DNA from: an uncultured Gammaproteobacteria bacterium
GTDB lineage: Bacteria > Pseudomonadota > Gammaproteobacteria > Nitrosococcales > Methylophagaceae
Assembly (NCBI GenBank): GCA_937900515.1
Contig: CALCCU010000049.1
Location: 1-52,918 of the forward strand
DNA length: 52,918 nucleotides
Direction: 5' to 3'
Shown: piece after piece, positions 27,186-45,502 of the stretch
Layout: every line of letters begins with the position of its first letter
Position numbering within the stretch: position 1 is the stretch's first letter
The notes under the pieces: generated by a model
Databases searched by the model: none
Told to the model about the DNA's origin: nothing
Seen by the model: the letters and a program-made list of their open reading frames with translations, nothing else
Position numbers and translations under genes: made by a program

Positions 27186-27584
27186 GTGAGTGACGAAAAC
27201 ACTGAATTTTCTGGACTAAAAGTCCTAGTGATCGATGACAGTAAAACGATTCGACGCACGGCGGAAACCTTACTTAAGAAAGTAGGTTGCGAAGTTGTAA
27301 CTGCTGAAAATGGTTTTGAAGCGCTACCGATTATTACATCCAACCATCCAAACATCATCTTCATTGATATCATGATGCCCCGTTTAGATGGCTACCAAAC
27401 ATGCTCACTCATCAAAAATAATGCTACATTCAAAAATACACCGGTCATTATGCTTTCTAGTAAAGACGGTTTATTTGATCGCGCAAAAGGTCGTGTAGTC
27501 GGCGCAGAGCAATATCTTACAAAACCATTTGCTCGCGATGATCTCCTCAATGCTATTAGAACCCACCTGCTAAACAAATCTTAA
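27186..27584 (+). CDS. pilG: Pil-Chp response regulator PilG
   Basis: This single-domain receiver has 132 residues: VLVIDDSKTIRRT with the acidic pair, the phosphoacceptor Asp in FIDIMMPRLDGYQ, the conserved Ser and the Lys in YLTKPFARDDLL. Short length and position as first gene of pilGHIJ-chpA identify PilG, which drives pilus extension in Pseudomonas. It uses a GTG start at 27186. It begins the operon; pilH follows after 13 nt. Confidence 0.93.
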   Translation: MSDENTEFSGLKVLVIDDSKTIRRTAETLLKKVGCEVVTAENGFEALPIITSNHPNIIFIDIMMPRLDGYQTCSLIKNNATFKNTPVIMLSSKDGLFDRAKGRVVGAEQYLTKPFARDDLLNAIRTHLLNKS

Positions 27585-27597
27585 GGTTATACAGAAC

Positions 27598-27963
27598 ATG
27601 GCTCTTATTCTTATCGCAGATGATTCCCCAACAGAAATCTATGTCCTGAAAAAAATTTTAGAGAAGCATCAGCACACTACAATTACTGCTGAAGATGGTG
27701 AACAGGCTGTTGAACTTGCCAAAAGTGAAAAGCCTGACCTAGTCCTCATGGATGTAGTGATGCCTAAGCTCAATGGTTTTCAAGCAACACGCCGACTAAG
27801 TAAAGATGGTGAAACAAAAGATATCCCCGTTGTTATCGTTTCATCAAAAAATCAAGAAACAGATAAACTTTGGGGAATGAGACAAGGTGCAAAAGGTTAC
27901 CTAGGTAAACCAGTAACTGAAGAGCTCCTTATGAATGAGATTAACAATCTGTTAGCAGGTTAA
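27598..27963 (+). CDS. pilH: Pil-Chp response regulator PilH
   Basis: This single receiver domain has 121 residues: LIADDSPTEIYVLKKIL, phosphoacceptor Asp in LVLMDVVMPKLNGF and KGYLGKPV. The LMDVVMP and MRQGAKGYLGKP segments match PilH, the second response regulator of the type IV pilus chemosensory pathway, which acts as phosphate sink or promotes retraction. It lies 3 nt before pilI. Confidence 0.93.
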   Translation: MALILIADDSPTEIYVLKKILEKHQHTTITAEDGEQAVELAKSEKPDLVLMDVVMPKLNGFQATRRLSKDGETKDIPVVIVSSKNQETDKLWGMRQGAKGYLGKPVTEELLMNEINNLLAG

Positions 27964-27966
27964 GTT

Positions 27967-28512
27967 ATGACTACGAGTAACACTCCAAAAGCAATTCTTG
28001 ATCTTCTTAGAGATGTCCAAAGCCGCAGTCAACACAGTGCAGCAAAATTATCTCAAGATGATCTTCATGGTTCATGGACTGCAATCGGCTTTCGTATAGC
28101 CGAACAACACTTACTCATCCCCCTCAGTGAAACACGCGAAGTATTTACCGTTCCAACTCAAATTACTGCCGTTCCCAAATCAAAACCTTGGGTGTATGGG
28201 ATTGCTAATCTGCGTGGTGAACTATTGCCATTATTTGACCTTAAATATTTTTTATATGGCGAAGCGACTAAAGTTAATAAACGTAGTCGTATTGTTGTAA
28301 ATAATCACCCAAACCTTTATTCAGGACTGTTACTTGACGAAGTGTTTGGTTTAAAACATTTTCAACATGAACCTGAAGCAAGTGGCAAAACACAGGATAG
28401 TGTCATTGCAGACTATATCTCTGGCCATATCGCACAAAAAGAGATGCAGTGGGATGTGTTTAGTTTCAACAAACTTGCAGCTGATCAGCGTTTTTTAAAT
28501 GCTGCCGCGTAA
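27967..28512 (+). CDS. pilI: CheW-like coupling protein PilI
   Basis: The 181-residue protein contains a CheW domain (about residues 33-175) with the typical GIANLRGELLPLFDLKYFL strand-turn segment and LLLDEVFGL. PilI links the receptor PilJ to the kinase ChpA. It is read from ATG 27967 and is followed by pilJ after 24 nt. Confidence 0.93.
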   Translation: MTTSNTPKAILDLLRDVQSRSQHSAAKLSQDDLHGSWTAIGFRIAEQHLLIPLSETREVFTVPTQITAVPKSKPWVYGIANLRGELLPLFDLKYFLYGEATKVNKRSRIVVNNHPNLYSGLLLDEVFGLKHFQHEPEASGKTQDSVIADYISGHIAQKEMQWDVFSFNKLAADQRFLNAAA

Positions 28513-28536
28513 TATTTTGATTTTAGGAAAATCACT

Positions 28537-29802
28537 ATGAACTCAACAAGCAAACTTTTTTTCTCAACAATAACGTCAAAAAGTAATCTACCAATACTGA
28601 TTTTTAGTATTGTTTTCATTTTGCTTACACTTGCAGGAATCGGTTTGTTAGCCACAGAGCAATATTCTCTTATTTTTCCTGATCCACTCATCTTCTCTGG
28701 CGTGGTATTACTGAGCTTGATCATCTCATTTTTTTTAATCGCTAGATTAAGTTATCAGCCACTAAAAGAAATTCGAGACTCTCTAGTAGAAATGGAAGTT
28801 CAAAACCGTCACAACCAAGATGCGATTTTACAACTCCTTGATGAAATGGGTGATTTAGCGGATGGTGACCTTACTGTGACCGCAACGGTTACAGAAGATA
28901 TCACGGGGGCGATTGCAGACTCAGTTAACTATACTATCGATGCCCTTCGTGACTTAGTAGAAAACATCAACTCTACTACCGTTCACGTAGCATCCGCGGC
29001 ACAAGAAACTCAGGCTACCGCTTTACACTTAACTGATGCCAGTGCTCATCAAACACAACAGATAACGGATGTAAGTACAGCCATCAGTGAAATGGCGGGC
29101 TCTATCGAGCAAGTATCTCAAAATGCTAGTCAATCATCAGACGTTGCCCAACAATCAGTACAACTCGCTGCTCAAGGTAGTGAGGCAGTAAAAAATGCGA
29201 TTACTGGTATGGATACGATTCGTGAACATATTCAAGAAACCTCTAAACGTATCAAACGTCTGGGTGAAAGCTCACAAGAAATCGGAGATATCGTAGAACT
29301 CATCAACGATATCGCGGAACAAACCAATATCCTTTCACTTAATGCCGCTATCCAAGCAACTATGGCCGGTGAAGCTGGACGAGGGTTTGCGGTAGTTGCC
29401 GATGAGGTTCAACGGCTTGCGGAGCGTTCAAGTAACGCGACTAAACAAATCGATGCTCTGGTAAGAACTATCCAAAGTGATACTAATGAAGCGATTAACT
29501 CCATGGAGAAAAGTACTTCAGGGGTAGTATCTGGAGCAAAACTATCACAAGATGCAGGTACTTCATTAGAGCAAATTGAAGCCGTATCCCATCAATTAGC
29601 CGAACTTATCAATAATATCTCAGCAGCTGCCAAGCAACAGGCTCAAGCAGCGGTAAGTACTTCAGATAGTATGAATGTAATCCAAGAGATTGCGATTCAA
29701 ACCTCGACAGGTACTAATGAAAGTGCAGCCTCAATCGGGCGACTGCTTGATCTTACTGATGAACTTCGTAAGTCAGTATCTGGCTTCACCTTACCATCTT
29801 AA
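28537..29802 (+). CDS. pilJ: Methyl-accepting chemotaxis protein PilJ, minimal sensor form
   Basis: The 421-residue receptor has two membrane helices (about residues 20-44 and 55-74) joined by only about ten residues, then a HAMP-like helix and a full cytoplasmic signalling domain. The hairpin tip [35 protein letters not shown] (about 265-299) is unmistakable and PilJ-like. Pseudomonas PilJ is about 680 residues and has a large periplasmic PilJ-repeat domain, which is absent here. The receptor may therefore sense through the membrane, the HAMP region or partner proteins. Context (pilGHI before, chpA after) supports the name. Confidence 0.88.
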
Positions 29803-29864
29803 AGAACTAACATTTCAAAATGGTTTTTTTCATTTTCGATAGCATTACTGTTCTGGAGTAACAG

Positions 29865-32800
29865 ATGGCAGAGATAATTAGCGGTAACTATGACGCGTTA
29901 GCTTGGGTTCAGGAAGAGTTGCAAGCTTCGCTTGATAATGCGTTGCAATCCCTTCACCGCTACATAGATGATAATGATGATAGCTCTTCACTAGAGTCTT
30001 GCATCAGTCAACTCCATCAAACGAATGGCACCGTTGACATGCTCAATCTAAATGGTGCTAAGCTGCTATCAAGTGAAATTATGGCATCTGCAAACCAACT
30101 GCCTCATGCAGATCCAGCCATGAAAACAGCTATTCAAGATAGCCTTATCAAAAGCCTATTAATCTTACCAAACTACCTAAAAGTAATATCGACAGAGTTA
30201 AGTGATGACCCTCTTCGCCTACTCACTACTATTAATGATTTGCGTGAAGCACATGGTGAACAACCGCTAAATGAAAGCGACTTATTCACACCTAATTTAG
30301 CTGTTCAACTACCCGATTCAGTAGCGCCTAAGCCGATTGCTGACTCAATGAAGCAATCAGCGGTCGGGGCAAAGCTCAGCCATATCTATCAAATTTCATT
30401 ATTACGTTGGTTTAAAGATAACGATACTGAAAGTCTCCAAAGAATGGAGAAGATTTTTAACTTTCTTAGACGTAATAGCCTACAAGAAAAAAGTATTATC
30501 TTATGGTGGGCTGCAGCAGGAATTATCGAAGCACTTCAAGACAGTGGCTTGATTGTTGATAAACAGATCAAATCTAAAGTGGGTAAACTCAATAAATCCA
30601 TCGAGCTGTTCAGCCAGCATGGTGAACAAGAGCTACTGGCTTTATTTCCTAATCAACTATTAAGCGAGTTATTGTTACAGGTTGCCCACAGCTCTAGCTC
30701 AGGCAAGCATGTCACTCTTCTAAAAAACACGTTCGACCTGAACTTTTTTAACCCTAGCCAACACCAAAAAATCTATAATTTAAGTGGTGATGCGCTCGAT
30801 AATGTTCATCTAGAGCTGCTAGAAAGTCTACAAGCGATTAAAGAACAAGTTGACCAGTTCGATCGTCACTCAGAGCAGTCATTATCAGTCTTTGAACAAT
30901 TGCCTGAACAATTAATAAATATCGCTGATACCCTACAATTACTAGGTGAAAACTCTTCTGGCACATTACTTCTTCAACAACAGTCAGAATCATTAAGTAC
31001 GCTTCTTACAAATGAACAAATACCTGATGAAGAACAGCTATCCTCATTAGCAGATGTTTTATTGCAAATTGAGAGACAATTAAAAAATATTCATGTCGAT
31101 AATGAGCAATCAGGTGATAGTTTAGAGTTACAAAAACATGTGCTTGGCGAATGTCTCTATGAATTAAATCTCATAAAAGATACCTTAGCTATTTTGTCTG
31201 AACAGCCAGAAAAGATTGAGCAGCATCTTGAAGATATTTCACGTCAGTTGAAGCTGGTGTCTGGCAGCGTATCAATGGTCAACTTAAACGAAATAGCAAG
31301 CCTTCTTCAAAATACCGATCAACAGATTGTAGATTTGAAAAAAAATACCGCTTCTATTTCTCAGCAAGAATTAACTTGGCTAGCTGAAATTATTGCCTCA
31401 TGTGAACTTTATATGGAAGGTATTCAACAAGGCGCTTCTCAGCAATCACAGCTTCTGATTAATGCCCAAAGTATCCTGATCAACTTCGAACAGTCTGAAT
31501 CTGATGATAAACTGATTCTCGATCTTGAAACGCCCACTAGCGATAAGGTCGAATCAGATACTCACAATCCATCACTAGCAATTAGCTCAGAAGATACAAG
31601 CTCATCAATTAATACTGAAACTGAGCTAGTTGAAACCAGTGTTGCTCGTTACATCCGACAAAATAACCAATTAAATCTAACTGTTGAAGTTGAACCATCG
31701 AACAGTGTAGAGACTTCAACGAGTGTAGAGCGCTATATACAACAGCATTTAAATACTGATGCCGCTCTAGCACAGATACAACCAGAAGCTATGACGGGTG
31801 TCGAACGCTATATTCAAGCAATGGACACTTCAAATAATACTGAACTGGATCAACCTAAAAAGACAAGTGTTCAACGCTATATAGATCAGCTCGACCAAGT
31901 GAGCATTAAAGAAGAGCTTTCTTCTATCTCAGCAGTACTAAAAACTGAAGACACAACCTCATTAGATGATATCGACCCTGAAATTGCAGAAATTTTTATC
32001 GAAGAAGCAAATGAAGTACTTGCAGATTTCAAAATACTTATTCCTCAGTGGCTAGCTAATCATGATCTAGGTACGCTAGGAACAATTCGCCGCCATTTCC
32101 ACACATTAAAAGGTAGTGGCCGAATGGCTGGCACAAAAGTCATTGCTGATCTTGCCTGGGCAGTAGAAAACTTGCTAAACGAGATCCTCGAGGACAAACA
32201 ACCACTCATAGCTGCATTGGATAAAATCATTCTTGATGCTCAAGAACATATTCCTGAGTTATTAACTCGATTTACAAATAGAAACTTGGCTACAACAGAA
32301 CAAGTAGAACAAATCATTGGGTTAACTGATAGCTATCCTTCAGAGTCAGAGTCAGAGTCAGAGTCAGAGTCAGAGTCAGAGTCAGAGTCAGAGTCAGAAC
32401 TTAGTATTACTGATGAAGATGATGAATTACAGCAAATATTTAACGATGAAGCCATTCAACATATAGAAACGTTCAAACAAGCACTTCATCAACAACAAGC
32501 CCCATTCTCACTAAATAAAGAGCTGCTGCGTGCCGCCCACTCTCTAAAAGGCTGCGCCAATATTGCACAGGTAATGCCCGTTGCAGTTGTGGCAACTCAA
32601 CTTGATAAATCGCTTCGCACGCTATATGAACATAACATAGCACTAGATGAACAACCACTAGCGACCTTAAATGATGTTATTACTGGTCTAGATCAATTCA
32701 TTGCTAAGCTACCTAGCTCAGAAAACGAGCAAGATGACATTCTTCCTTTGGCTGAACAGCTTATTCGATTAATGCCTAGTGACACGCATCTAAAATCAGC

Positions 32801-35543
32801 TGATGATAATGAAAAGTTAGTCGACCCTGAATTTCTTGTAGTTTATTTAGAAGAAACAGATGAATTGCTGAATTTATACAATAGTCAGCTAGCAATACAA
32901 CAGCAAGAGCCTGAAAACTTAGAGCATCAAGCTGCTTTACATCACACATTACAAACTCTGACTGATAACTCAAAGCATGCTCAATTACCAGTACTAGTTA
33001 CTCTATACCAATTACTAGATAAATTAACTCAACATTCTGAATCAAACCATAAAGATGTGGTGAGTTTAGTAGAGCAATGTTACGAACACATTAACGATCA
33101 AATTGAATTATTAATTCAGAATAAACCTGCCAGTGATATCAGTGAGTTTGAACAGTTGGTTCTCGATCGTCTTAACCCTGCAGTTATTGAATCTGCTCCA
33201 GAAAATGAATGGTTTACACCTCCGAATGACGAACCTGAACTCTTAGAAGCATTTACTGAAGAGTTTGTTGAGCTATTAGAGTCAAGTGAAGATGCCATTA
33301 AGCGTTGGAGCCAAAATCACGATGATCATGATGCCTCTCAACAGTTACAACGTGTCCTTCACACTATAAAGGGTGGCGCACGTTTAACCGATCTGGCCCC
33401 GATTGCTGAAATAAGTCACCAAATTGAAACAATGGTATCTTCTGTTGTCGAACATCAACACGAAGTAAGTGATGATTTCTTTTCACTATTACAGCAGGCA
33501 CAAGATCGCCTAGCCGAAATCCAAGAGCGCTTAGTAAACAATGAACCCTTACCTGTTTCTCGTGACATATTAATTGCAATAGCTAACTTTACAGGCCAAG
33601 CAGTATCAGTCACATCATCTAACCAGCCACAAGTTGAACAGTTAGTAGAGACCGCTGAGAAACAAACAAAAACCAACGTAGCTGCTGGTGGTGGTGAACA
33701 GATTCGTGTTCGTGCGGATTTACTTGATTTCTTAACCAACTTTACCGGTGAAGTTAATATCTCTCGCGACCGTGTGGGTCAGCAAAACTCTGCTATTCTT
33801 CTTCAACTAGCAGAAATGGAATCAACGGTAAGTCGTTTACAAGATCAGTTAAGAAACCTAGAAATAGAAACAGAGACACAAATTTTATTCCGTTATGAAG
33901 ATAAAATTCATGACAAGACCGCTGACTTCGATCCGCTCGAATTTGACCGTTTCTCTATGATCCAACAGCTATCTCGTAGTTTGACTGAAAGTGTGAGTGA
34001 TATGAATGAAATCACACAATCAATTGATAATATTGTGCGTGATTCAGACTCAATTCTCCTACAACAATCTCGACTTAGTGCCGATTTAGAACAAGGCTTA
34101 ATGAATACACGCCTATTACCATTCACAGGGCTTGTGCCTCGGTTTGAACGTATTATACGTCAAGTCAACTCTGAACTAGGTAAGCAAGCTCACTTAACGG
34201 TATTAGGTGCTGAGCGAGAGCTGGACAGAACAATACTTGATCGAATTGTAGCCCCACTTGAACACCTCATTAGAAATGCTATCGCTCATGGCGTTGAGTC
34301 GCCAGAGAAACGACGCGAACTCGGTAAAGATGAAACAGGTCAACTCACATTATCAATTACGCGAGAAGGCTCTGAAATTCTATTATCTCTAGCAGATGAT
34401 GGTCAGGGTATAGACGTCGAGAAAGTTAAACAAAAAGCGCTCAAACAAAACTTAATCAACCCAGATAAAATGCCATCTGATGAAGAATTGATCCAGCTAA
34501 TCCTAACATCGGGCTTTAGTACTTCGGATGATGTCTCTCAGATTTCAGGCCGTGGTGTTGGTATGGATGTGGTAAGCAATGAAATCCGTGCACTAAAAGG
34601 TCGACTTTCAATTCAGTCCATTGCCGGAAAGGGAACAACATTCAATGTTCGCTTACCATTAACGCTCTCAATCATGCAGTCTCTAATGGTGAGCTGTAAT
34701 GATAAGCCATATGCAATCCCTATGAGTGCTGTCCATGCAGGCACACGTGCTAGCGTCGCTGACATTAAAGCATTACTATCGACTGAGGGCGAAAGCCGTT
34801 TTGAATTCCACGGTGAATATTACCAATTCTTACCGCTCGCACAGTTACTTGATCAAACCATTACTCTACCTGATGACCCCAAAGTTCAGCTGCCGATACT
34901 ACTCTTTAGATATGGTGATATGCAGCTTGCACTATTAGTTGATGCTGTTAACGCTAATCGTGAAATCGTACTGAAATCAGTTGGTGAACAATTAAGCACT
35001 ATCAACTCGATTAATGGTGCAACTATTTTAGGTGATGGTCAGGTTGTATTTATTCTTGATATTCCATCATTGGTTGAAGCGGCAAATTTAAGTAATGCTG
35101 AAAGCTTAAAAGACTCATTATTAACACCAGCTGCAGATGTTCAACCTCATGACCGAACACCAATTGCAATGGTAGTTGATGACTCAATTACGATGCGTAA
35201 AGTATCAGGTAATCTTCTGAAACGTCATGGTTTCGATGTCATTACGGCTCGAGATGGTATTGATGCGATTGCCCAACTCAATGAGCAAACACCAGATATC
35301 ATTTTACTTGACGTTGAAATGCCTCGAATGGATGGCTTTGAGTTTGCGACCTTAGTCCGTAATATAGAGCAATATAAAGAGTTACCAATCATTATGATCA
35401 CTTCACGTACAGGTGACAAACATCGTACCAGAGCATTAAATATTGGAGTAAATTCCTATTTGGGTAAACCTTACCAAGAATTAGAGTTAGTAGAGACAAT
35501 GCAAAACTTACTTGGCACACGCTATCCAGACACAAGACGCTAA
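29865..35543 (+). CDS. chpA: Hybrid chemosensory histidine kinase ChpA
   Basis: This 1892-residue protein is a multi-HPt CheA. An N-terminal helical region with an HPt-like remnant (about 1-300) precedes a coiled region and an acidic linker (about 555-690) containing four SVxRYI repeats. Canonical HPt histidines are His746 (HTLKGS), His892 (HSLKGC) and His1166 (HTIKGG). A degenerate repeat keeps His1027 without the Lys-Gly. A (Ser-Glu)10 tract spans residues 826-845. The kinase core follows: dimerisation region, HLIRNAIAHGVESPEKRR at about 1467-1484, the GRGVGMDVV loop, then a CheW domain and a C-terminal receiver with Asp1816 in LLDVEMPRMDG. Pseudomonas ChpA is longer (about 2470 residues, eight phosphotransfer domains). 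It signals to PilG and PilH. Confidence 0.95.
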   Translation: MAEIISGNYDALAWVQEELQASLDNALQSLHRYIDDNDDSSSLESCISQLHQTNGTVDMLNLNGAKLLSSEIMASANQLPHADPAMKTAIQDSLIKSLLILPNYLKVISTELSDDPLRLLTTINDLREAHGEQPLNESDLFTPNLAVQLPDSVAPKPIADSMKQSAVGAKLSHIYQISLLRWFKDNDTESLQRMEKIFNFLRRNSLQEKSIILWWAAAGIIEALQDSGLIVDKQIKSKVGKLNKSIELFSQHGEQELLALFPNQLLSELLLQVAHSSSSGKHVTLLKNTFDLNFFNPSQHQKIYNLSGDALDNVHLELLESLQAIKEQVDQFDRHSEQSLSVFEQLPEQLINIADTLQLLGENSSGTLLLQQQSESLSTLLTNEQIPDEEQLSSLADVLLQIERQLKNIHVDNEQSGDSLELQKHVLGECLYELNLIKDTLAILSEQPEKIEQHLEDISRQLKLVSGSVSMVNLNEIASLLQNTDQQIVDLKKNTASISQQELTWLAEIIASCELYMEGIQQGASQQSQLLINAQSILINFEQSESDDKLILDLETPTSDKVESDTHNPSLAISSEDTSSSINTETELVETSVARYIRQNNQLNLTVEVEPSNSVETSTSVERYIQQHLNTDAALAQIQPEAMTGVERYIQAMDTSNNTELDQPKKTSVQRYIDQLDQVSIKEELSSISAVLKTEDTTSLDDIDPEIAEIFIEEANEVLADFKILIPQWLANHDLGTLGTIRRHFHTLKGSGRMAGTKVIADLAWAVENLLNEILEDKQPLIAALDKIILDAQEHIPELLTRFTNRNLATTEQVEQIIGLTDSYPSESESESESESESESESESELSITDEDDELQQIFNDEAIQHIETFKQALHQQQAPFSLNKELLRAAHSLKGCANIAQVMPVAVVATQLDKSLRTLYEHNIALDEQPLATLNDVITGLDQFIAKLPSSENEQDDILPLAEQLIRLMPSDTHLKSADDNEKLVDPEFLVVYLEETDELLNLYNSQLAIQQQEPENLEHQAALHHTLQTLTDNSKHAQLPVLVTLYQLLDKLTQHSESNHKDVVSLVEQCYEHINDQIELLIQNKPASDISEFEQLVLDRLNPAVIESAPENEWFTPPNDEPELLEAFTEEFVELLESSEDAIKRWSQNHDDHDASQQLQRVLHTIKGGARLTDLAPIAEISHQIETMVSSVVEHQHEVSDDFFSLLQQAQDRLAEIQERLVNNEPLPVSRDILIAIANFTGQAVSVTSSNQPQVEQLVETAEKQTKTNVAAGGGEQIRVRADLLDFLTNFTGEVNISRDRVGQQNSAILLQLAEMESTVSRLQDQLRNLEIETETQILFRYEDKIHDKTADFDPLEFDRFSMIQQLSRSLTESVSDMNEITQSIDNIVRDSDSILLQQSRLSADLEQGLMNTRLLPFTGLVPRFERIIRQVNSELGKQAHLTVLGAERELDRTILDRIVAPLEHLIRNAIAHGVESPEKRRELGKDETGQLTLSITREGSEILLSLADDGQGIDVEKVKQKALKQNLINPDKMPSDEELIQLILTSGFSTSDDVSQISGRGVGMDVVSNEIRALKGRLSIQSIAGKGTTFNVRLPLTLSIMQSLMVSCNDKPYAIPMSAVHAGTRASVADIKALLSTEGESRFEFHGEYYQFLPLAQLLDQTITLPDDPKVQLPILLFRYGDMQLALLVDAVNANREIVLKSVGEQLSTINSINGATILGDGQVVFILDIPSLVEAANLSNAESLKDSLLTPAADVQPHDRTPIAMVVDDSITMRKVSGNLLKRHGFDVITARDGIDAIAQLNEQTPDIILLDVEMPRMDGFEFATLVRNIEQYKELPIIMITSRTGDKHRTRALNIGVNSYLGKPYQELELVETMQNLLGTRYPDTRR
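32340..32399 (+). repeat. Hexanucleotide tandem repeat (tcagag)9 in chpA
   Basis: Nine perfect tcagag units followed by tcagaa encode ten Ser-Glu dipeptides (residues 826-845 of ChpA) between two HPt domains. The repeat unit is a multiple of three, so copy-number change alters linker length without a frameshift. Confidence 0.97.
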
Positions 35544-35555
35544 CAGGAAATAAAC

Positions 35556-36008
35556 ATGGCTGAGAACACAACTGACTTTATTCCTTGCATGCTTATTCCT
35601 TTACAGCAGCATTATTTATTATTGCCCAACTCAACTATTGCTGAAGTTATTCCTATGCCACAAGTCTCTGCTGTTGCAGAAAAACCGAGCTTCTGGGTAG
35701 GTGAATGTCATTGGCATACTCGGGAATTGCCCGTTATTAATGTAGAAGCGTTAATTGAAGATAAGCCAATTGACGTGACTGCAGCTAATAAGCTGTGTGT
35801 GTTACATGGCATCAATGAGTCATCTGATATTCCCGTTTACTCGCTACCTTGTTATGGTGTTCCACAATTAATTTATCTCAATGAGTCTACGCTACTTCTT
35901 GCAGAAGAATCTCAAGACTCAGATTTTGTACTCTATACATTACAAATTGGTAAAAAAACCGCTTACATCCCTAACTTAGATACTATTGAAACATCTCTAA
36001 GCCACTAA
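35556..36008 (+). CDS. CheW-domain protein of the Pil-Chp cluster (ChpC-like)
   Basis: The 150-residue protein resembles a CheW fold: CMLIPLQQHYLLLPNSTIAEVIP, then WHTRELPVINVEALI and a C-terminal YTLQIGKKTAYIP strand. Pseudomonas has a second CheW-like gene, chpC, at this end of the cluster, which supports the assignment; in that organism it links additional receptors to ChpA. It begins 12 nt after chpA and precedes slt by 13 nt. Confidence 0.8.
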   Translation: MAENTTDFIPCMLIPLQQHYLLLPNSTIAEVIPMPQVSAVAEKPSFWVGECHWHTRELPVINVEALIEDKPIDVTAANKLCVLHGINESSDIPVYSLPCYGVPQLIYLNESTLLLAEESQDSDFVLYTLQIGKKTAYIPNLDTIETSLSH

Positions 36009-36021
36009 AAAAGACTTATTC

Positions 36022-37950
36022 GTGACCTGTTATTACCCTATTGGGCCAATAAAAATATCCCTTATCACCATCTTATTGGCACTATTCTCTATTAGTGTAC
36101 TTGCTGATGTACCTGCTGATTATTCTCAACAGCGAAAAACGTTTCAGGTAGCCAAAAAAGCACTCGAAACAAATCAGATAAATATTTTCAGAGAGCTAAA
36201 TGATCAACTAAAAGATTACCCTCTCCAACCTTATTTAGACTACCTCTACTTACGCCATAGACTAAGTCATACTGATGAAAAAACTATTACTAGTTTTTTA
36301 GAAAAACAAAAAAACACCTTCTATGCCAAGCGTCTAAGAAGCAGCTGGTTAAATAGCTTAGCTAACAACAAAAAATGGTCTCTGTTCCTTGAACAATATC
36401 AAGCGCCACAATCTACTTCTAGACAGTGTCTTAGACTACAAGCTCTTATCAATACAGGTAATATTCAAGAAGCGTTTAATGAAATTCCTCGTTTGTGGCT
36501 TGTGCCTAAATCACAGCACAAAAACTGTGATCCAGCATTCAAGTACTGGCAAAGTAACAACCAATTAACAGATAATCTTCGCTGGCAACGTATCATGCTT
36601 GCAGTACATGCGAGCCAGTTTAGTCTAGCCAAATACCTAGCTAAGACACTGAAAAACCCTCAGCCAGCCAATCGTTTAATCGAAAAGTGGCAGCAGGCAA
36701 ATTCGAAACCTGTTGCATTGCTAAAATTGAAATTGGCAGACAACTGGAATAATAGAGATATTATTAAATATGCTATTAAGCGGCTTGCAAGAAAGTCGAC
36801 TGATCAGGCCTATGAAGCATGGCTCATAAAAAGTAAAACATATAACTTCACAGAGCAAGATAAACTAAACATACAGCGAGCCATCGCTAACCGTGCAGCG
36901 CTCAACCGAGAAGACCGTACCTTAGAATATTTTGCAGATATTCCTAATGAACCATGGCGTGTCCGAGCAGCCCTATGGCAACAAAATTGGCCTGCTGTAA
37001 ATAAAGCCATTTTAAGCCTCAATATTAATGAGCGACAACACCCTCGCTGGCAATATTGGTTAGCTCGTAGCCAAGAAAAACTGGGGCAACATACTGAGGC
37101 AACAAAGACCTATCAAGCTTTGAGCAATAAACGGGATTTTTATGGCTTTCTTGCTGCCGACCAGTTACAGCAACCTTATCAGATGAATCACAACCCTATT
37201 TACTATGAACCGACTGAACTAGGGCAACTTCTCGACCTCCCTTCAGTCGCTAGATTACAAGAGTTTTATGCACTTGATCTCAATCTCGCAGCACGCCGTC
37301 AAGCCTATCAACTTAAACAAACACTATCGCCACGACAGTTGCAGTTACTAGCCACGCAGATACATAAATGGCAGTGGCATAATCAAACCATCGCTTTATT
37401 AGGTAAGGCAAAGTATTGGGATGCACTCGACCTCCGCTTTCCAATTGTTTATGACACCCCCATCCTCCTTGCAGCAAAGAAAAATGGTATGGATCCTTCT
37501 TGGCTATTTGGCATTGCGAGGCAAGAAAGTGCATTTAATCCACATGCACGCTCACATGTTGGGGCGACTGGACTCATGCAGTTAATGCCTAAAACAGCTA
37601 AACAAATTGCACGCCAGATTAATAAACCACTAAAAAAAGTCTCTGAACTACTCATACCTGAACGAAATATTGAGCTAGGCAGTGCTTATTTACGTCGCAT
37701 GTATGATATCCAACAGCGCAACCCCGTGTTAGCAACAGCCTCTTATAATGCAGGGCCTCATCGCGTTTCCCGCTGGCTGCCAGAGCATAAATTGCCCGCA
37801 GATATTTGGATTGAGAATATTCCATTCACTGAAACTCGTCGCTACACACAAAGTGTTTTGAGTTATGCAGCGATTTTTGATTACCAGCGAAAGCAAATAA
37901 TAAAACCCTTATCAACACGTATGCCAGCAGTGCAAGCAAAAACACCGTAA
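36022..37950 (+). CDS. slt: Soluble lytic murein transglycosylase
   Basis: The 642-residue periplasmic enzyme cleaves peptidoglycan glycan strands. It starts with GTG at 36022 and has a signal sequence (hydrophobic stretch ISLITILLALFSISVLADV). An alpha-superhelical U/L domain of about 430 residues follows. The catalytic SLT domain (about 485-620) contains ARQESAFNPHARS with the catalytic Glu, GATGLMQLMPKTA and ASYNAGPHRV. Length and domain order match E. coli Slt70. The small gap to the CheW gene suggests read-through from the pil operon; cca follows after 9 nt. Confidence 0.95.
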   Translation: MTCYYPIGPIKISLITILLALFSISVLADVPADYSQQRKTFQVAKKALETNQINIFRELNDQLKDYPLQPYLDYLYLRHRLSHTDEKTITSFLEKQKNTFYAKRLRSSWLNSLANNKKWSLFLEQYQAPQSTSRQCLRLQALINTGNIQEAFNEIPRLWLVPKSQHKNCDPAFKYWQSNNQLTDNLRWQRIMLAVHASQFSLAKYLAKTLKNPQPANRLIEKWQQANSKPVALLKLKLADNWNNRDIIKYAIKRLARKSTDQAYEAWLIKSKTYNFTEQDKLNIQRAIANRAALNREDRTLEYFADIPNEPWRVRAALWQQNWPAVNKAILSLNINERQHPRWQYWLARSQEKLGQHTEATKTYQALSNKRDFYGFLAADQLQQPYQMNHNPIYYEPTELGQLLDLPSVARLQEFYALDLNLAARRQAYQLKQTLSPRQLQLLATQIHKWQWHNQTIALLGKAKYWDALDLRFPIVYDTPILLAAKKNGMDPSWLFGIARQESAFNPHARSHVGATGLMQLMPKTAKQIARQINKPLKKVSELLIPERNIELGSAYLRRMYDIQQRNPVLATASYNAGPHRVSRWLPEHKLPADIWIENIPFTETRRYTQSVLSYAAIFDYQRKQIIKPLSTRMPAVQAKTP

Positions 37951-37959
37951 AATAGAAGC

Positions 37960-39180
37960 ATGAAAACCTATCTTGTAGGCGGCTGCGTCCGTGATAAATT
38001 ACTTGGCCTTCCCATCAAAGATAGGGACTGGGTAGTAGTTGGTAGTACTCCTGAATTGATGTTAGCCGAGGGTTTTCAAGCTGTTGGAAAAGACTTTCCT
38101 GTTTTTCTTCACCCTAGAACTCATGAAGAATATGCACTTGCACGCACAGAACGAAAAACTGCTCCTGGTTATAAGGGCTTTGTCGTTCACGCTGCACAAG
38201 ACGTTACTCTAGAACAAGATCTCATTCGTCGAGACTTAACTATTAATGCTATCGCCCAAGATTCTAGTGGCAATTTAATCGACCCCTACAACGGCCAGCA
38301 GGATATTCGCGATAAGATCCTCCGACATATATCTCCCGCATTTAGCGAAGATCCTGTTCGTGTTTTACGCATTGCACGCTTTGCTGCGCGATTTGGTTTC
38401 ACCATTGCTGATGAAACGAAACAGCTTATCCAAGAAATGATCGCCAATAAAGAGCTCGAACATCTTGTTTCCGAGCGCGTATGGCAAGAATTAGAAAAAG
38501 CACTCGCTACCCCTCACCCTTCATTGTTCTTTATGGCTTTACGTGACGTGGGGGCATTGAACGTACTCTTCCCAGAAGTTGATAGGCTTTTTGGCGTACC
38601 ACAAGCGCCTAAGTGGCATCCTGAAATAGATACCGGGATTCACGCTATGCTAGTGCTCGATCAGGCAGCAAAGCTAACTGCTGATATTACTGTCCGTTTT
38701 GCAGCCTTGTGCCATGACCTAGGTAAGGGCACAACACCAGCCGATATTCTGCCGCAACATATTGGTCATGAATTGCGAAGCGTTCACTTAACTCAAGCAT
38801 TGTGTAAACGTTTACGTGTCCCTAAAGAAATCCACACCGTTGCGCTAAAGGTTGCCGAATATCACACCCATGTTCATTTACTGTTTGAAATGAGAGCTGA
38901 AACTATTCTTGAAGTGATAGAAGCTTTAGACGCATTTCGTAAACCAGAGCGTTTCGCACAGTACCTATTAGCTGGAGAAGCTGATTTTCGTGGTCGACCA
39001 GGTTATGAAAGCCTGCCAATGCCTGCTATTGAGGTGTTTAAACAATGTTTTCAGGCAGCACGAGAAGTGGTCGCAAAACCATTTGTGGAGCAAGGACTGA
39101 AAGGACCAGCGATAAACGATGCGATTCGCACGCAGAGGATTGTTGCTATTGAAGAAATCATGAAAACACACAAGCACTAA
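37960..39180 (+). CDS. cca: Multifunctional CCA-adding tRNA nucleotidyltransferase
   Basis: Cca adds or repairs the tRNA 3' CCA end. The 406-residue protein has the nucleotidyltransferase signature VGGCVRDKLLGLP with the Asp pair DRD, the RRDLTINAIA segment, the EDPVRVLRIARFAARF neck motif, and a C-terminal HD phosphohydrolase domain (LCHDLGKG at about 252-259, EYHTHVH). This is the gammaproteobacterial bifunctional type. It is followed by mch with a 53-nt gap that contains a TATAAT box at 39190. Confidence 0.96.
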   Translation: MKTYLVGGCVRDKLLGLPIKDRDWVVVGSTPELMLAEGFQAVGKDFPVFLHPRTHEEYALARTERKTAPGYKGFVVHAAQDVTLEQDLIRRDLTINAIAQDSSGNLIDPYNGQQDIRDKILRHISPAFSEDPVRVLRIARFAARFGFTIADETKQLIQEMIANKELEHLVSERVWQELEKALATPHPSLFFMALRDVGALNVLFPEVDRLFGVPQAPKWHPEIDTGIHAMLVLDQAAKLTADITVRFAALCHDLGKGTTPADILPQHIGHELRSVHLTQALCKRLRVPKEIHTVALKVAEYHTHVHLLFEMRAETILEVIEALDAFRKPERFAQYLLAGEADFRGRPGYESLPMPAIEVFKQCFQAAREVVAKPFVEQGLKGPAINDAIRTQRIVAIEEIMKTHKH

Positions 39181-39233
39181 TTCCTGACGTATAATCATTT
39201 TATTTTTTAATCTTTCCCGTACAGGATTTCCCC

Positions 39234-40205
39234 ATGAGCGATTCAATTTCCACTAACTGGGCAAGTGTCAATGCAGCTTGCCAACCTTTAGTTGATAATT
39301 TAGTAGCTAATGCCCAAGCATTACAGCTTGAAATTAGCACGTTAAGTAACGGTACTCGCATTATTGATGCCGGCATCAAATGTAATGGCGGTCTTGAAGC
39401 TGGGCGCTTAATTGGTGAAATTTGCATGGGTGGTTTAGGAACTGCAACCCTAGGCACAAATAGCGGTTTTGAAAACTGGCCTTGGTCTGTCAATGTTCAT
39501 GCTAAAACACCTGTATTAAGTTGCCTCGGTAGCCAGTATGCTGGATGGAGCTTATCTCATGAAAAATTCTTTGCATTAGGTTCAGGTCCTGGTCGTGCAC
39601 TAGCAGGTAAAGAAGAAGTATTGAAAGAGTTTGGCTATAAAGATGAAGCAACAACAACGACTATCGTATTAGAAGTTGACTCGTTCCCTCCGATTGAAGT
39701 GGCTGAAAAAGTAGCTAAAGACTGCGGCATCAAAGCTGAAGACTTAACGTTCATCTTAACACCAACATCAAGCCTTGCTGGCGTGATGCAAATCGCCATT
39801 CGTGTTCTTGAAGTAGCAATGCATAAAGCACACACGCTTCATTTCCCTATGGATAAAATTATTGATGGTTACGGTGTTACCCCTGTTGCTCCTCCGGGCG
39901 GAGACTTTATGACAGGTATGGGCCGTACCAATGATGCGATTTTGTTTGGTGGTCAAGTCCATTTATTTGTTAAATCAACCGATGAAGAAGCAAAAGACTT
40001 AGCTGAAAAATTACCAAGTAATACATCTTCTGATTATGGCCGCCCATTTGGCGAAGTATTTAAATCATATGATTTTGACTTCTTCAAAGTAGATCCAATG
40101 TTATTTAGCCCAGCCAAAGTAATCGTAACAAATGCAAACACTGGTAAGAGCTTTACTGCTGGTGAGCTTAATACCGAATTACTTACTACATCATTTGGCC
40201 TGTAA
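39234..40205 (+). CDS. mch: Methenyltetrahydromethanopterin cyclohydrolase
   Basis: Mch interconverts methenyl- and formyl-tetrahydromethanopterin in the cytoplasmic formaldehyde oxidation pathway. At 323 residues it matches the archaeal and bacterial family: [27 protein letters not shown] at about residues 43-69, [13 protein letters not shown], and [24 protein letters not shown]. This enzyme is diagnostic for H4MPT-dependent C1 metabolism. It precedes orf5 and orf7 in the order known from other methylotrophs. A hairpin lies in the gap to the next gene. Confidence 0.97.
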
Positions 40206-40216
40206 TCTATCATTAC

Positions 40217-40239
40217 GCGAGGTAGGTCTCCTGCCTCGC
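40217..40239 (+). other. Strong intercistronic hairpin after mch
   Basis: gcgaggtagg - tct - cctgcctcgc forms a ten-pair stem with one G-T wobble, 11 nt past the mch stop. No T run follows, so it is not a standard terminator. It is more likely a processing or mRNA-stabilising structure that sets a high mch level relative to the genes downstream. Confidence 0.7.
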
Positions 40240-40257
40240 CATCAACTTTAATTCTTA

Positions 40258-41184
40258 ATGCAATCCCACTCAAAAATAGTCATTTTTAACGACACGCATG
40301 GCTGGCATAGCGAACAACTAGTCAACGCATTAAAAGCCTATAAAATTAGCGCCGTCCTTTGTGACCTAGCTGATTGTACTATTGATCTTGATAAGCCTAC
40401 AGGGCTTTCTATCCCTGGTTTTGAAGAAAAATTGCCTGCCGCTGCATTAGTCCGAGGAATAGCGCCCGGCACATTAGAACAGATCACTTTAAGAATGGAT
40501 GTATTACATACTCTGGCAGAGTTATCTGTTCCAGTATTGAATCCTGCCAGTGCTATTGAGCACACTGTTGATAAAGCTCGTACTTCATTAAGACTCCACT
40601 TATCAGGCCTTAAAACACCTAAAACGTGGGCCAGTGAAAACCCGCAGCAGGCTAGAATCATTGCAGCTAAACAGTTTAAAAAATCACTTAGTGTTGTCAT
40701 CAAACCTCTATTCGGTTGCCAAGGTAAAGGCATCAAAAAAATCAATAACCTCGATGAGTTTGATGCTCTTACCGTTGTTGGTGATGCATTTTATATGCAA
40801 GAGTACATAGAACCTTTTGAAGAAAATAATTGGCAAGATTGGCGACTCATGGTGGTTGATAATGTCGTATGTGCTGCAATGTCTAGGCGTTCTTCACACT
40901 GGATAACTAATTTTGCACAAGGTGCTAGCTGTTTTGCGACAACGATCACTCCTGAAATGGAGCTACTTGCAATTAAGGCGACTCAGGCTGTTGAAGCAGA
41001 TTATGCTGGGGTAGATCTGATTCGCAATAAGGATGGGAGCTACACGGTATTAGAAGTTAACAGCGTACCGGCATGGAAGGGTTTATTTCAAGCAACGGGC
41101 ATCAATGCTGCAGACAATATTGCTAAAGCCTTAGCTAAGCGTATTGCATCAACTCAAGCTGAAACACGTGATCATGTTCAGTAG
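40258..41184 (+). CDS. ATP-grasp ligase of the H4MPT cluster (Orf5, RimK/MptN-like)
   Basis: This 308-residue protein is a RimK-type ATP-grasp ligase. ATP-binding segments include SVVIKPLFGCQGKGIKKI (about residues 143-160) and FYMQEYIEPF, and metal-binding acids lie in GVDLIRNKDGSYTVLEVNSVPAW. In methylotrophs the gene directly after mch is known as orf5, required for H4MPT-dependent growth; archaeal homologues such as MptN add glutamate to H4MPT-type cofactors. Glutamyl or hydroxyglutarate-like ligation to the pterin cofactor is the likely role, but the substrate is inferred from context. Its 3' end overlaps orf7 by about 11 nt. Confidence 0.82.
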   Translation: MQSHSKIVIFNDTHGWHSEQLVNALKAYKISAVLCDLADCTIDLDKPTGLSIPGFEEKLPAAALVRGIAPGTLEQITLRMDVLHTLAELSVPVLNPASAIEHTVDKARTSLRLHLSGLKTPKTWASENPQQARIIAAKQFKKSLSVVIKPLFGCQGKGIKKINNLDEFDALTVVGDAFYMQEYIEPFEENNWQDWRLMVVDNVVCAAMSRRSSHWITNFAQGASCFATTITPEMELLAIKATQAVEADYAGVDLIRNKDGSYTVLEVNSVPAWKGLFQATGINAADNIAKALAKRIASTQAETRDHVQ

Positions 41185-42082
41185 AGAAGAAATTCAACGC
41201 TGTATTATTTGGGCCTGTGAAAGTGAGGTTCTATCGCCAAAGCCTGGAAATGTAAATAGTGTGAGTGATGGCCACAATATGCAGGTTGAAGACTTTATTC
41301 AAAGTGCTCACGCTATTGCCCCAGCATTAACGGAGTCAAATAATTCCGTTGGTCAACGTATCTTATTAGCAGTTCAGGCCACCCGTGAAGTTGTGGACTG
41401 CAACACCAACCTTGGTATTGTCTTACTCTTTGCACCCTTATGTGTTGCTATCGAGCAATGTAAGCATAGAGATCAGCTTCGAGACAAACTGTCTGAAGTC
41501 TTAAAAGCACTGACCATTGACGATGCTAAGTATTGCTTTGAAGCCATCCGACTAGCCGAAGCAGGCGGGATGGGAAAGGTACAAGATCAAGATATTAATG
41601 ACACACCATCCGTCACACTCTTAAAAGCGATGGAACAAGCAAAAGATCGCGACTCTATAGCTGCTCAATACCTTAATAATTACCAGTCAATTTTCGAAAC
41701 TGGGCTTCTAAATTTGACATTTGAAATTAATTCTGGGGAAAGTGTTGAATGGGCTACTACTTTCGCGTATCTTTATCTCTTATCAGATAGCTATGACACT
41801 TTGATTTGTAGAAAACAAGATAAGCAGACAGCACGAATAGTAAGTCAACGGGCTAAGAAATTTATCGATAGATGCAGTAAAAACAACGTGTTAAAGAGCT
41901 TCTCAGCTGAGTTATCAGATTGGGATCAAGAATTAAAGAGGGATGCAATAAATCCAGGAACAACGGCTGACATGACCGCAGCTACGTTGTTAGTATATGC
42001 ATTAACCTCAAATGAATTTCAGCGCACTTTTATGTGTACTGAGCAGGACGTACGTTCCTTGAATACGTATAACCTCCCCTAA
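41174..42082 (+). CDS. CitG-like (triphosphoribosyl-dephospho-CoA synthase family) protein, Orf7
   Basis: This protein has about 302 residues and carries the CitG-family N-terminal motif SPKPGNVNSVSDGHNM with later LAEAGGMGKV and DPxNPGTTAD-like (NPGTTADMTAA) segments. CitG joins ATP and dephospho-CoA to form a triphosphoribosyl cofactor; the methylotroph homologue orf7 occurs with mch and orf5 and is associated with H4MPT synthesis, but its reaction is unknown to me. ATG 41144 is also in frame, but 41174 reduces the overlap with orf5 and removes an unlikely basic leader. A terminator-like hairpin sits on its stop codon, before fae. Confidence 0.82.
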   Translation: MFSREEIQRCIIWACESEVLSPKPGNVNSVSDGHNMQVEDFIQSAHAIAPALTESNNSVGQRILLAVQATREVVDCNTNLGIVLLFAPLCVAIEQCKHRDQLRDKLSEVLKALTIDDAKYCFEAIRLAEAGGMGKVQDQDINDTPSVTLLKAMEQAKDRDSIAAQYLNNYQSIFETGLLNLTFEINSGESVEWATTFAYLYLLSDSYDTLICRKQDKQTARIVSQRAKKFIDRCSKNNVLKSFSAELSDWDQELKRDAINPGTTADMTAATLLVYALTSNEFQRTFMCTEQDVRSLNTYNLP

Positions 42083-42100
42083 CAATGCTTGGGGGATTTT
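42075..42100 (+). terminator. Terminator-like hairpin between orf7 and fae
   Basis: tcccctaa / ttggggga forms an 8-pair stem with one wobble around a caatgc loop. The arm starts within the last codons of orf7 and the stem is followed by only four T. It may attenuate read-through so that fae is driven by its own promoter (possible TATAAA at 42114). Confidence 0.5.
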
Positions 42101-42142
42101 AGATGGGCCTTTTTATAAATTTTTGGAACAGGAATAAATAAC

Positions 42143-42661
42143 ATGCCAGTTATCGACCGCGTACTTGTAGGTGAATCTCTAGTCATTGAAGATGGTGACT
42201 TAGACAACGTATCTCACATTGACTTAATCATGGGCCCACGTGGCTCAGCAGCAGAAGATGCATTCTGCCGCACTTTGACTGACCAAAAACAAGGTGTTAA
42301 TGGTCTTTTAGCTGTAGTAGCTCCTAACCTTATGGTTAAGCCTGCAACAGTTATGTTTAACAAAGTTACAATCAAAAACATGAAGCAAGCAGTTCAAATG
42401 TTTGGCCCAGCTCAACGTGGTGTTGCTATGGCTGTAGCTGAATGTGTTGAAGATGGCACAATCCCAGCTGCTGAAGCTGATGATTGCTTCATCTGTGTTG
42501 GTGTATTCATTTCTCCAACTGCTGACAGCGACCAAAAGATCCAAGATTGGAACTACCGTGCTACTAAAGAATCAATCAAACGTGCTGTTGCTCGTGAGCC
42601 AAAAGCAGCTGACGTTGTAGCACAATACAAATCAAGCGAACATCCTTTCGCAGCAAGCTAA
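42143..42661 (+). CDS. fae: Formaldehyde-activating enzyme
   Basis: Fae catalyses condensation of formaldehyde with tetrahydromethanopterin to methylene-H4MPT and is typically among the most abundant proteins in methylotrophs. At 172 residues it is family length. The N-terminal [18 protein letters not shown] contains the catalytic His, and the body has [27 protein letters not shown] clear ribosome binding site (agga) lies before ATG 42143. It is a single gene unit bounded by hairpins at 42075 and 42690. Codons look strongly biased (gta, ggt, gct rich), consistent with high expression. Confidence 0.98.
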
Positions 42662-42689
42662 GTTTTAATTTAGTTTGAATGATTTTAAA

Positions 42690-42724
42690 AGCCGCTTTCT
42701 CTAAAAAGAGAAAGCGGCTTTTTT
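42690..42724. terminator. Strong terminator after fae
   Basis: agccgctttctct / agagaaagcggct forms a 13-bp perfect stem around aaaa, with a six-T tail and an A run on the other side. It ends fae and, in the other direction, the HisA-like gene. Confidence 0.95.
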
Positions 42725-42735
42725 ATGTCCGAACC

Positions 42736-43431: not shown

Positions 43432-43463
43432 CCTACTCCTTAGGCATCATTTGATAGCAATTA

Positions 43464-44465
43464 ATGAAACTATTTATCTACGAGCATATAACCAGTGGTG
43501 CGCTCAGCAACGAGACATTACCCGCTAGCCTTCAGCGCGAAGGTAATATGATGCTGCAGGCCCTTATCGAGGACTTTATACAGCTCGCTGATATTAAAAT
43601 CATCATTTTACGCGATCACCGACTTGAAGCGATTAATATCATCAATCAAGCCATTAACTGTATTATCGTAGATGATAAAGCGACATTTAAACAAGCCTAT
43701 AAAGATGCCATTCAAGAAGCTGATTGCATCCTGCCAATAGCACCAGAAACTGAAAACATTCTATTCAATATACAAACCTCTATTTTAGCCGAAGGTAAAC
43801 AGTTACTTAGCAGTCAGCCCTCCGCAACCGCTCTGTGTACGGATAAGTATCGCTGCTATCAGTCACTTGCCTCCAGCGCAATCCCAACACCAGAGACCAT
43901 TTTAGCGAGTGAGTGGTCACTATCTACTCTAGAATCTAAATCAGGTTACGTTACAAAACCACGTGATGGAGCAGGTAGCATCGATACACTGTTTTTTGAT
44001 GATAGCGCTGCATTAACAAACTTCTTGAATAGCTATGATAAAGACTTGAAGCAATTTATTGTTCAGCCTTATATTACAGGTATTCCAATCAGCCTTTGTG
44101 TTCTATGCAATGACACAACTATAGAAGTGCTCGCAACCAATAATCAACATATCGATTTGCAAGAAAATAGCTTCTCATTTCAAGGCTGCACGGTGAATAG
44201 TGCAGCCTTGAGCATGGAGCTCGCAACGAATATTAGCCAAGCTATTCATAACACTATTCATGGTTTATGGGGCTTTATAGGTATTGATGCCATTGTTAGT
44301 AACGGCCACATAGTAATAGTCGATATCAACCCTCGTCTAACTACTTCCTATATTGGACTGCATAAATCGTTACAAATAAATCCTGCTCAATTATTATTAT
44401 CGATGATGAAAACTAACTCCATCCCCCCTATTTCTCAACGCTTGCCTATCGAGGTTTTAGTATGA
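43464..44465 (+). CDS. ATP-grasp ligase, tyramine/tyrosine-glutamate ligase (MfnD-like, Orf17)
   Basis: The 333-residue protein has N-terminal IYEHITSGALS, then DKYRCYQSL, an ATP-grasp core (GYVTKPRDGAGSIDTLFF at about 156-173, FIVQPYITGIPIS) and the metal-binding end IGIDAIVSNGHIVIVDINPRLTTSYIGL. The EHITSGAL start and NPRLTTSYIGL end are typical of the archaeal MfnD family, which ligates tyramine to glutamate in methanofuran; the methylotroph homologue is orf17. Its stop overlaps the mfnF-like start by 4 nt, starting a five-gene coupled operon. Confidence 0.85.
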   Translation: MKLFIYEHITSGALSNETLPASLQREGNMMLQALIEDFIQLADIKIIILRDHRLEAINIINQAINCIIVDDKATFKQAYKDAIQEADCILPIAPETENILFNIQTSILAEGKQLLSSQPSATALCTDKYRCYQSLASSAIPTPETILASEWSLSTLESKSGYVTKPRDGAGSIDTLFFDDSAALTNFLNSYDKDLKQFIVQPYITGIPISLCVLCNDTTIEVLATNNQHIDLQENSFSFQGCTVNSAALSMELATNISQAIHNTIHGLWGFIGIDAIVSNGHIVIVDINPRLTTSYIGLHKSLQINPAQLLLSMMKTNSIPPISQRLPIEVLV

Positions 44466-45502
44466 CTACATCTTGCATCAGTGGTTGGGACATTGGTGGC
44501 GCTCACATCAAAGTTGCACGCTGTGACAGCAATGGTGAGCTACTCACTGTTACTCAAGTTGCATGTCCTTTATGGCTCGGTATCGATCAATTAGAACGAG
44601 CGATTGAAACACTGCTTTCAGACCTTAATAATCAAGGTGATCGCCATGCCATAACCATGACGGGGGAGTTAGTTGATATTTTTGCTAATCGCCAACAAGG
44701 CGTTTCTGATATTTTGTCATGTCTAAAAAAATATATTGCACCACAAAATACAGTTGTTTATGCCGCAGAGTTGGGGCTAATTACACCTGCTCACGCGACA
44801 CAATCTTGGCAGCAAGTAGCATCTCGTAACTGGCAGGCAAGTGCAAGCTTAGTGGCACAGCAGGAATCAGAGGGTTTATTCATCGATATAGGCAGTACTA
44901 CCTGCGATATTATCCCCTTTAGTAATGGCCTAGAAGTTCCCTCTGGTACAACTGATTTTCAGCGTCAGACTACCAGAGAGTTACTCTATACTGGTGCAAT
45001 TCGAACACCATTAATTGCAATTAGCCAAGCAGCTCCCCTAAACGGCACTATTACGAGTTTAGCTGCGGAACTCTTTGCCACATCAGCTGACGTTTGGTGT
45101 TTATTAGGCTTATTAGACCCCAAAACAATCCAAGATAGCAGTGCGGATGGGCAGTCGTGGAACAATACATTTTGTGCTACTCGTATTGCGAGGTTATTTG
45201 GTGCTGACTTCGAGCAAGCAAGCCTAAATGAATGGCAACAAGTCGCACAATGGTTTGCCGAACAGCAAATACACCAAATTACTCAGGCAATACTTCAGGT
45301 TATTTCATCTCAGCCTTCTCTTGCGCATGATGCACCATTAATCGGTGCCGGTGTTGGTCACTTTATCATTAAACGTTGTGCTCAAAGATTGAACCGACCT
45401 TACCGTGACTTTGCCAATACGATTTCAGTTTCCAATATAAATGCATCGGATAACGCTGCAGCTGTAGCAGTGGCCCTTCTAGCACATCGTAACTTAACGT
45501 AA
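44462..45502 (+). CDS. H4MPT-linked C1 pathway protein, hydantoinase/oxoprolinase-like (MfnF-like)
   Basis: This is a 346-residue actin-fold ATPase-like protein with GWDIGGAHIKVA (phosphate-1 loop), MTGELVDIFANRQQGV, and FIDIGSTTCDIIPF (phosphate-2 loop). This matches the 'probable H4MPT-linked C1 transfer pathway protein' family. The archaeal member MfnF condenses the furanmethanol diphosphate with gamma-glutamyl-tyramine in methanofuran synthesis. Operon position after MfnD-like and before MfnE-like genes fits that role. It is read from an overlapping ATGA. Confidence 0.87.
   Translation: MTTSCISGWDIGGAHIKVARCDSNGELLTVTQVACPLWLGIDQLERAIETLLSDLNNQGDRHAITMTGELVDIFANRQQGVSDILSCLKKYIAPQNTVVYAAELGLITPAHATQSWQQVASRNWQASASLVAQQESEGLFIDIGSTTCDIIPFSNGLEVPSGTTDFQRQTTRELLYTGAIRTPLIAISQAAPLNGTITSLAAELFATSADVWCLLGLLDPKTIQDSSADGQSWNNTFCATRIARLFGADFEQASLNEWQQVAQWFAEQQIHQITQAILQVISSQPSLAHDAPLIGAGVGHFIIKRCAQRLNRPYRDFANTISVSNINASDNAAAVAVALLAHRNLT

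Follow-up and report, generated by a model that had tools for sequence, protein, structure and literature searches.

A repeated T[SG]VxxYI motif common to ChpA and a RuMP-operon protein in the Methylophagaceae, a candidate docking motif of one-carbon assimilation

The Pil-Chp hybrid histidine kinase ChpA of an uncultured gammaproteobacterium of the family Methylophagaceae carries four copies of a short motif, T[SG]VxRYI, in an acidic low-complexity linker, and among its relatives arrays of this motif are found in essentially one other protein, a small product of the operon for RuMP formaldehyde assimilation. The array is conserved in the ChpAs of the family, the gene for its second carrier is linked to those of RuMP enzymes and, across a wider sample of genomes, arrays co-occur with hxlA. 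A little better than an even chance is given to the reading, drawn from sequence, that T[SG]VxxY[IL]xxQ is a multivalent docking motif of RuMP C1-assimilation scaffolds, to which ChpA would be coupled through the same putative partner. The window referred to below is the whole stretch of DNA analysed, the 52,918 nucleotides of contig CALCCU010000049.1 (assembly GCA_937900515.1).

The motif array of ChpA and its conservation

As read from the ORFs and their sequences, the Pil-Chp gene order pilG-pilH-pilI-pilJ-chpA-chpC is present at 27186-36008 of the window, and the chpA product combines several Hpt domains, a HATPase, a CheW and a C-terminal receiver domain in one chain (Pfam), as is characteristic of a Pil-Chp ChpA. 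A cluster of C1 (H4MPT) genes lies 3' of it. The features concerned are as follows.

27186..29802, + strand: pilG, pilH, pilI and pilJ-like genes, directly 5' of chpA (from sequence reading, two receiver-only, one CheW-like and one MCP-like ORF)
29865..35543, + strand: chpA, Pil-Chp hybrid histidine kinase, 1892 aa (ORF; Pfam Hpt x4, HATPase_c, CheW, Response_reg)
31635..31664, + strand: motif copy 1, TSVARYIRQN, ChpA residues 591-600
31719..31748, + strand: motif copy 2, TSVERYIQQH, ChpA residues 619-628
31794..31823, + strand: motif copy 3, TGVERYIQAM, ChpA residues 644-653
31863..31892, + strand: motif copy 4, TSVQRYIDQL, ChpA residues 667-676
35556..36008, + strand: chpC-like gene, the second CheW-like gene (from position and sequence, with orthologues in relatives)
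39234..40205, + strand: mch, methenyl-tetrahydromethanopterin cyclohydrolase, the gene with which the C1 (H4MPT) cluster 3' of chpA opens (NCBIfam TIGR03120, E=1e-125)
42143..42661, + strand: fae, formaldehyde-activating enzyme (NCBIfam TIGR03126, E=3e-64)
44462..45502, + strand: probable H4MPT-linked C1 transfer pathway protein (NCBIfam TIGR03123, E=7.5e-98)

Four related cores had been pointed out in the linker by the original prediction, and all four were recovered, SVARYI at residue 592, SVERYI at 620, GVERYI at 645 and SVQRYI at 668, with spacings of 28, 25 and 23 residues; every copy is preceded by a threonine, which extends the unit in the window to T[SG]VxRYI. The description of the linker as acidic and of low complexity was equally borne out, since ChpA residues 561-705 are rich in serine and threonine (35 of 145 residues) and contain 26 Asp and Glu against 10 Lys and Arg; the four motif tyrosines are the sole aromatic residues of this segment. 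Shuffling the linker 20,000 times produced a mean of 0.0016 and a maximum of one chance copy, compared with the four observed. The synonymous codons differ among the copies (ACC AGT GTT GCT CGT TAC ATC in copy 1, ACG AGT GTA GAG CGC TAT ATA in copy 2, ACG GGT GTC GAA CGC TAT ATT in copy 3 and ACA AGT GTT CAA CGC TAT ATA in copy 4), and their likeness is therefore held at the protein level and does not stem from a recent duplication of DNA. No further motif was found among the other ORFs of at least 60 aa in the window. An AlphaFold model of ChpA residues 561-954 drew helices at the four motifs, without confidence, its pLDDT of 42 being too low to be informative.

Conservation was assessed in ChpA genes from relatives, comprising 39 full-length sequences of the window's family (f1, on gene content probably the Methylophagaceae) and 12 from other families. 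At least two motif copies are present in 35 of the 39 and a single copy in one, giving one to seven copies per family ChpA, while the array is missing from three full-length family sequences (L094, L115 and L116) and from all 12 ChpAs of the other families. The proposal of a repeated short motif retained between changing spacers is thus upheld, and close relatives do carry the array. Its exact core required revision. One relative, L039, is 71% identical to the window ChpA overall and 37% identical in the linker, yet has kept all four copies as TSVERYI, TSVESYI, TGVEVYI and TGVELYI; Tyr-Ile is preserved in each, but the arginine, originally included in the SVxRYI motif, is replaced by Ser, Val and Leu in three of them. 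This reduces the core to T[SG]VxxYI, with arginine preferred but not invariant at its position (73% across the family). A relaxed search of the ChpA linkers, requiring four of the five core positions, found the valine in 159 of 160 and the tyrosine in 156 of 160 sites, with Phe only rarely in place of these residues, and returned only four imperfect matches in a control region of ChpA.

The array is located N-terminally to the first Hpt domain in the window, in most of its genus and in most genomes, between the first and second Hpt domains in most of genus g3, and at both linker positions in five ChpAs (L078, L081, L083, L114 and L117). Judged from these sequences, its presence in differing linkers points to selection acting on the motif irrespective of where it stands, in line with what a short binding motif should show. 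Position-wise gain and loss are usual for short linear motifs under selection. Repeats of other kinds are also found in ChpA: the next linker of the window protein contains a (Ser-Glu)x10 dipeptide tract (window 32340-32399, residues 826-845), in place of which L039 has a Glu/Thr/Ile-rich tract, and the motif-less L094 has a long LEVDEP repeat.

From 35556 to 45502 the window contains, in order, chpC, slt, cca, mch, a gene for a RimK/MptN-like ligase, a CitG-like gene, fae and the H4MPT C1-transfer gene. Of 16 family genomes, 14 have the arrangement pilGHIJ-chpA-chpC-slt-cca followed by mch-...-fae, which is absent from all four outgroups. As slt and cca intervene, and as two motif-less ChpAs keep the same order, this synteny is taken as supporting evidence only, and it may be merely inherited.

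Array proteins of RuMP operons and their distribution

The search for motif clusters in the genomes of relatives that had been suggested with the original prediction was performed with a two-copy DNA pattern, and arrays were found to recur, across 59 relative genomes, in essentially two family proteins, ChpA and the small RuMP-operon protein. Besides these there were a few chance matches and one methanotroph-type contig in G028, and the reversed pattern, used as a control, gave six matches in total. That contig (L228, G028:C210) bears a RuMP operon fragment; it is assigned to a genome from the same genus as the window and is probably a binning contaminant. Single motifs were not enriched genome-wide (163 matches against 179 for the reversed control), and for this reason only arrays are informative. 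A single TGVEKYI is found in the low-complexity C-terminal tail of a 535-aa RNase E-like ORF (L163, in G004), a match that may be fortuitous or may mark this protein as a third client of the putative motif partner.

The RuMP-operon protein is composed of approximately 60-230 residues; at its N-terminus a MSEKGFFASICGFFKGLFSS-like segment precedes two to eight copies of T[SG]VE[RKQ]YIRNQ, which recur with a period of about 17 residues. The N-terminal segment is amphipathic, its hydrophobic moment being moderately high (shuffle fraction 0.01-0.13), and its contact with the membrane is plausible. Gene order in the operons read is hps, array protein, tal (transaldolase), second hps, phi and a leuC-like gene; at the transaldolase locus of genus g3, a four-copy array lies 3' of hps in 19 of 19 further genomes. 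In the genome of the window, the protein is encoded on contig C269 (L219). Linkage to genes of candidate client enzymes is thus a property of the RuMP arrays, the ChpA gene itself being linked to mch and fae instead, and at least two of the three genomes with a motif-less ChpA retain both the RuMP array and the mch/fae synteny. No fusion of the motif to an enzyme was found.

In methanotroph-like genomes the motif takes the form TGVAKYL. One type of carrier (a) comprises a signal peptide, periplasmic YPAADFxPxVxYxD repeats, a single TM helix and three to five motif copies, and adjoins a soluble array protein (b) with up to about 17 copies, in layouts of the form tkt-[SP-TM-array]-[soluble array]-tal or [TM-array]-hps-phi. 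A further type (c), in L319 and L322, has a C-terminal QCQA..KGTQCRN domain and, in L322, directly follows an mch...fae...C1-transfer (H4MPT) cluster. A few arrays are located outside C1 operons (L316, L319 and L320), and the motif is absent from the CheA homologues of methanotroph-like genomes. The periplasmic repeats, of which one or two precede the TM helix (L209/L218, L244-L267), might bridge the membrane by binding a C1 enzyme situated in the periplasm or in the membrane. The QCQAxTxKGTQCRN domain of the third carrier (L319; L322 7270-7528) is small, conserved and unlike the other carriers. Tandem copies of the RuMP operon, three in G309 (L218) and two in G197 (L217), were also observed, with the array genes duplicated along with them, and the TM-array gene of G197 seems to be frame-shifted between copies. 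Its RuMP layout and its match to published descriptions (PMC517821, PMC8527097) would place G309 in the order Methylococcales.

Arrays and hxlA (TIGR03128) were detected in the same six of 369 Gammaproteobacteria genomes, which span three families (Fisher 3e-13, with a second co-occurrence value of 2e-6, both of which ignore phylogeny). Within the methanotroph-like order, hxlA is present in all 23 genomes with real arrays, and arrays are lacking from all 17 genomes without hxlA; of the 24 pattern matches in this order, L254 was left out because it lies outside any protein, and the matches in G443, identical to those in G429, may reflect contamination. By this pattern, a real array is missing in 11 of the 34 hxlA-positive genomes of the same order. 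The two f187 genomes read fully (G447 and G431) have an isolated hxlA beside dapB, which is not a RuMP operon, and no betaproteobacterial RuMP users were identified in the sample. The distribution suggests that arrays track hxlA and not pili. A polar or pilus protein, named originally as a possible binding partner, consequently finds no support: the only other recurrent carrier of the array belongs to a formaldehyde-assimilation operon, and the ChpA/CheA-like kinases of other families are devoid of the array.

A candidate docking motif and its alternatives

For these arrays we infer docking on a protein, with a C1 enzyme as the partner, shared with ChpA, and the orientation towards the membrane. 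The motif threonine is a possible N-cap, and V+2, Y+5, I/L+6 and Q/L+9 would be exposed on one face of a short predicted helix. In the RuMP-operon proteins the motif would fill the disordered part, with the membrane-facing segment at the opposite end, an arrangement which suggests that the inner membrane is where RuMP enzymes are retained. The array proteins would then act as scaffolds keeping these enzymes (most likely HPS, PHI, transaldolase or transketolase) close to the entry point of formaldehyde from periplasmic methanol oxidation. In the window's family, ChpA would have gained the same array in its flexible linkers and would dock on the same partner, coupling the Pil-Chp complex to the C1-assimilation assembly either by co-localization or through an input on C1 metabolism. 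Against this reading stand the three motif-less ChpAs of the family, the few arrays outside C1 operons, the hxlA-positive genomes that lack an array and the disagreements in copy number and motif tail described below.

Alternatively, the motif may be recognized by a general hub, such as a polar landmark, a pilus or cytoskeletal protein or a chaperone, of which ChpA and the RuMP scaffold would be separate clients; the link to RuMP would then tell where the enzymes are located, not what ChpA reads. The Pseudomonas ChpA does operate in a polar system, with FimV and FimL as hubs for PilG (PMC12632253), and both the sharing of the motif by two unrelated proteins and the few methanotroph-like arrays outside C1 operons are compatible with such a hub. 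On the other hand, the arrays follow hxlA, while a hub would be expected in many pil-chp non-methylotrophs, whose ChpAs lack the motif, as do the methanotroph-like CheA homologues. A general hub is considered unlikely.

Convergence, by which low-complexity linkers would have come to contain similar short amphipathic helices with no shared partner, appears more doubtful still. It would account for the tail of the motif, as columns +7 to +10 of the ChpA sites deviate from the RuMP array of the family and the whole-motif log-odds is slightly negative, for the lack of correlation between the copy numbers of the ChpA and RuMP arrays (rho 0.24, p 0.18), and for the unrelated repeats that ChpA linkers also contain, including the Ser-Glu tract and LEVDEP described above. 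However, the five-position core (T, [SG], V, Y and [IL]) is common to 156 distinct sites in the ChpAs and 110 in the RuMP-operon proteins of the family, V and Y being near-invariant in both proteins, and there are essentially two recurrent array proteins per genome. Moreover, positions +3 and +6 of the ChpA motif have the family's own form (E/D/Q in 83% and Ile in 79%), as in its RuMP arrays, and not the methanotroph form (18% and 12%, respectively).

A homotypic motif, the helices of which would self-associate into clusters of ChpA, of the RuMP scaffold or of both, could draw on the multivalency of the two proteins and on the regular amphipathic positions of the motif, but is thought improbable: methanotroph-like arrays occur where CheA homologues have no motif, so that mixed contact is not the general function, and the charged +3/+4 pair varies by clade with no reciprocal partner within the motif. 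Direct membrane binding, with each motif acting as a short amphipathic helix, has in its favour the membrane-facing segment at the other end of the array proteins, but is very improbable, since V and Y are kept more strictly than generic membrane helices require and the ChpA linker is acidic overall.

The docking reading may also be extended, tentatively, to a membrane-tethered RuMP metabolon that would be held together by T[SG]VxxY[IL] arrays in gammaproteobacterial methylotrophs and methanotrophs alike and into which the ChpA of one family would plug, surface motility or second-messenger output thereby reading formaldehyde assimilation directly; this version is possible, with the chances somewhat against it.

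Relation to known systems and significance

Disordered linkers with spaced short helical motifs, tied by genetics or by function to a carbon-fixing enzyme, are known from EPYC1 of the pyrenoid and CsoS2 of the alpha-carboxysome. The array proteins would resemble these in mechanism, with a single short motif repeated along a low-complexity chain and a genetic tie to enzymes, but differ in the motif itself, in their association with RuMP and not Rubisco and in their amphipathic or TM anchor. Homology to the EPYC1 and CsoS2 families was not detected, as the array proteins gave no Pfam or NCBIfam match above the curated cut-off, and where tested against these two collections they have no curated-family description. 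Weak Pfam matches (ATP_synth_reg at 18 bits, Csm6_HEPN, Choline_sulf_C and others) all fell under the cut-off, and the TM array protein had no PDB-sequence match.

The chemosensory cluster shares with that of Pseudomonas aeruginosa the pilGHIJ-chpA-chpC neighbourhood and the kinds of domain found in ChpA, the localization of which is given as unknown in a review (PMC12632253); unlike the P. aeruginosa system, that of the window's family has the T[SG]VxxYI linker array and a conserved linkage to mch and fae. Similarly, the RuMP operons contain the same enzymes as those of Methylococcus, and the tandem-duplicated locus of G197 and its relatives fits the published accounts, in which a search found the enzymes listed but no mention of an array protein between them (PMC517821, PMC8527097). 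A search of the open-access literature found no description of the motif or of a RuMP scaffold or metabolon, and returned one unrelated match to the motif letters.

The capture of formaldehyde, before it can cause damage, by the cells that produce it and the organization of RuMP enzymes at the membrane are long-standing questions. In the 1970s the 3-hexulose phosphate synthase of Methylococcus capsulatus was reportedly described as a membrane-bound enzyme. A small conserved RuMP-operon protein, built of repeats of a putative docking motif and a membrane-facing segment, provides a named gene with which the question of membrane organization can be approached, and is a possible part for synthetic methylotrophy. 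If the proposed docking is correct, the presence of this motif in a sensor kinase would amount to a new wiring of a chemosensory system to central metabolism. The sharing of the array hints that bacteria living on methanol or methane tie their surface behaviour physically to one-carbon metabolism.
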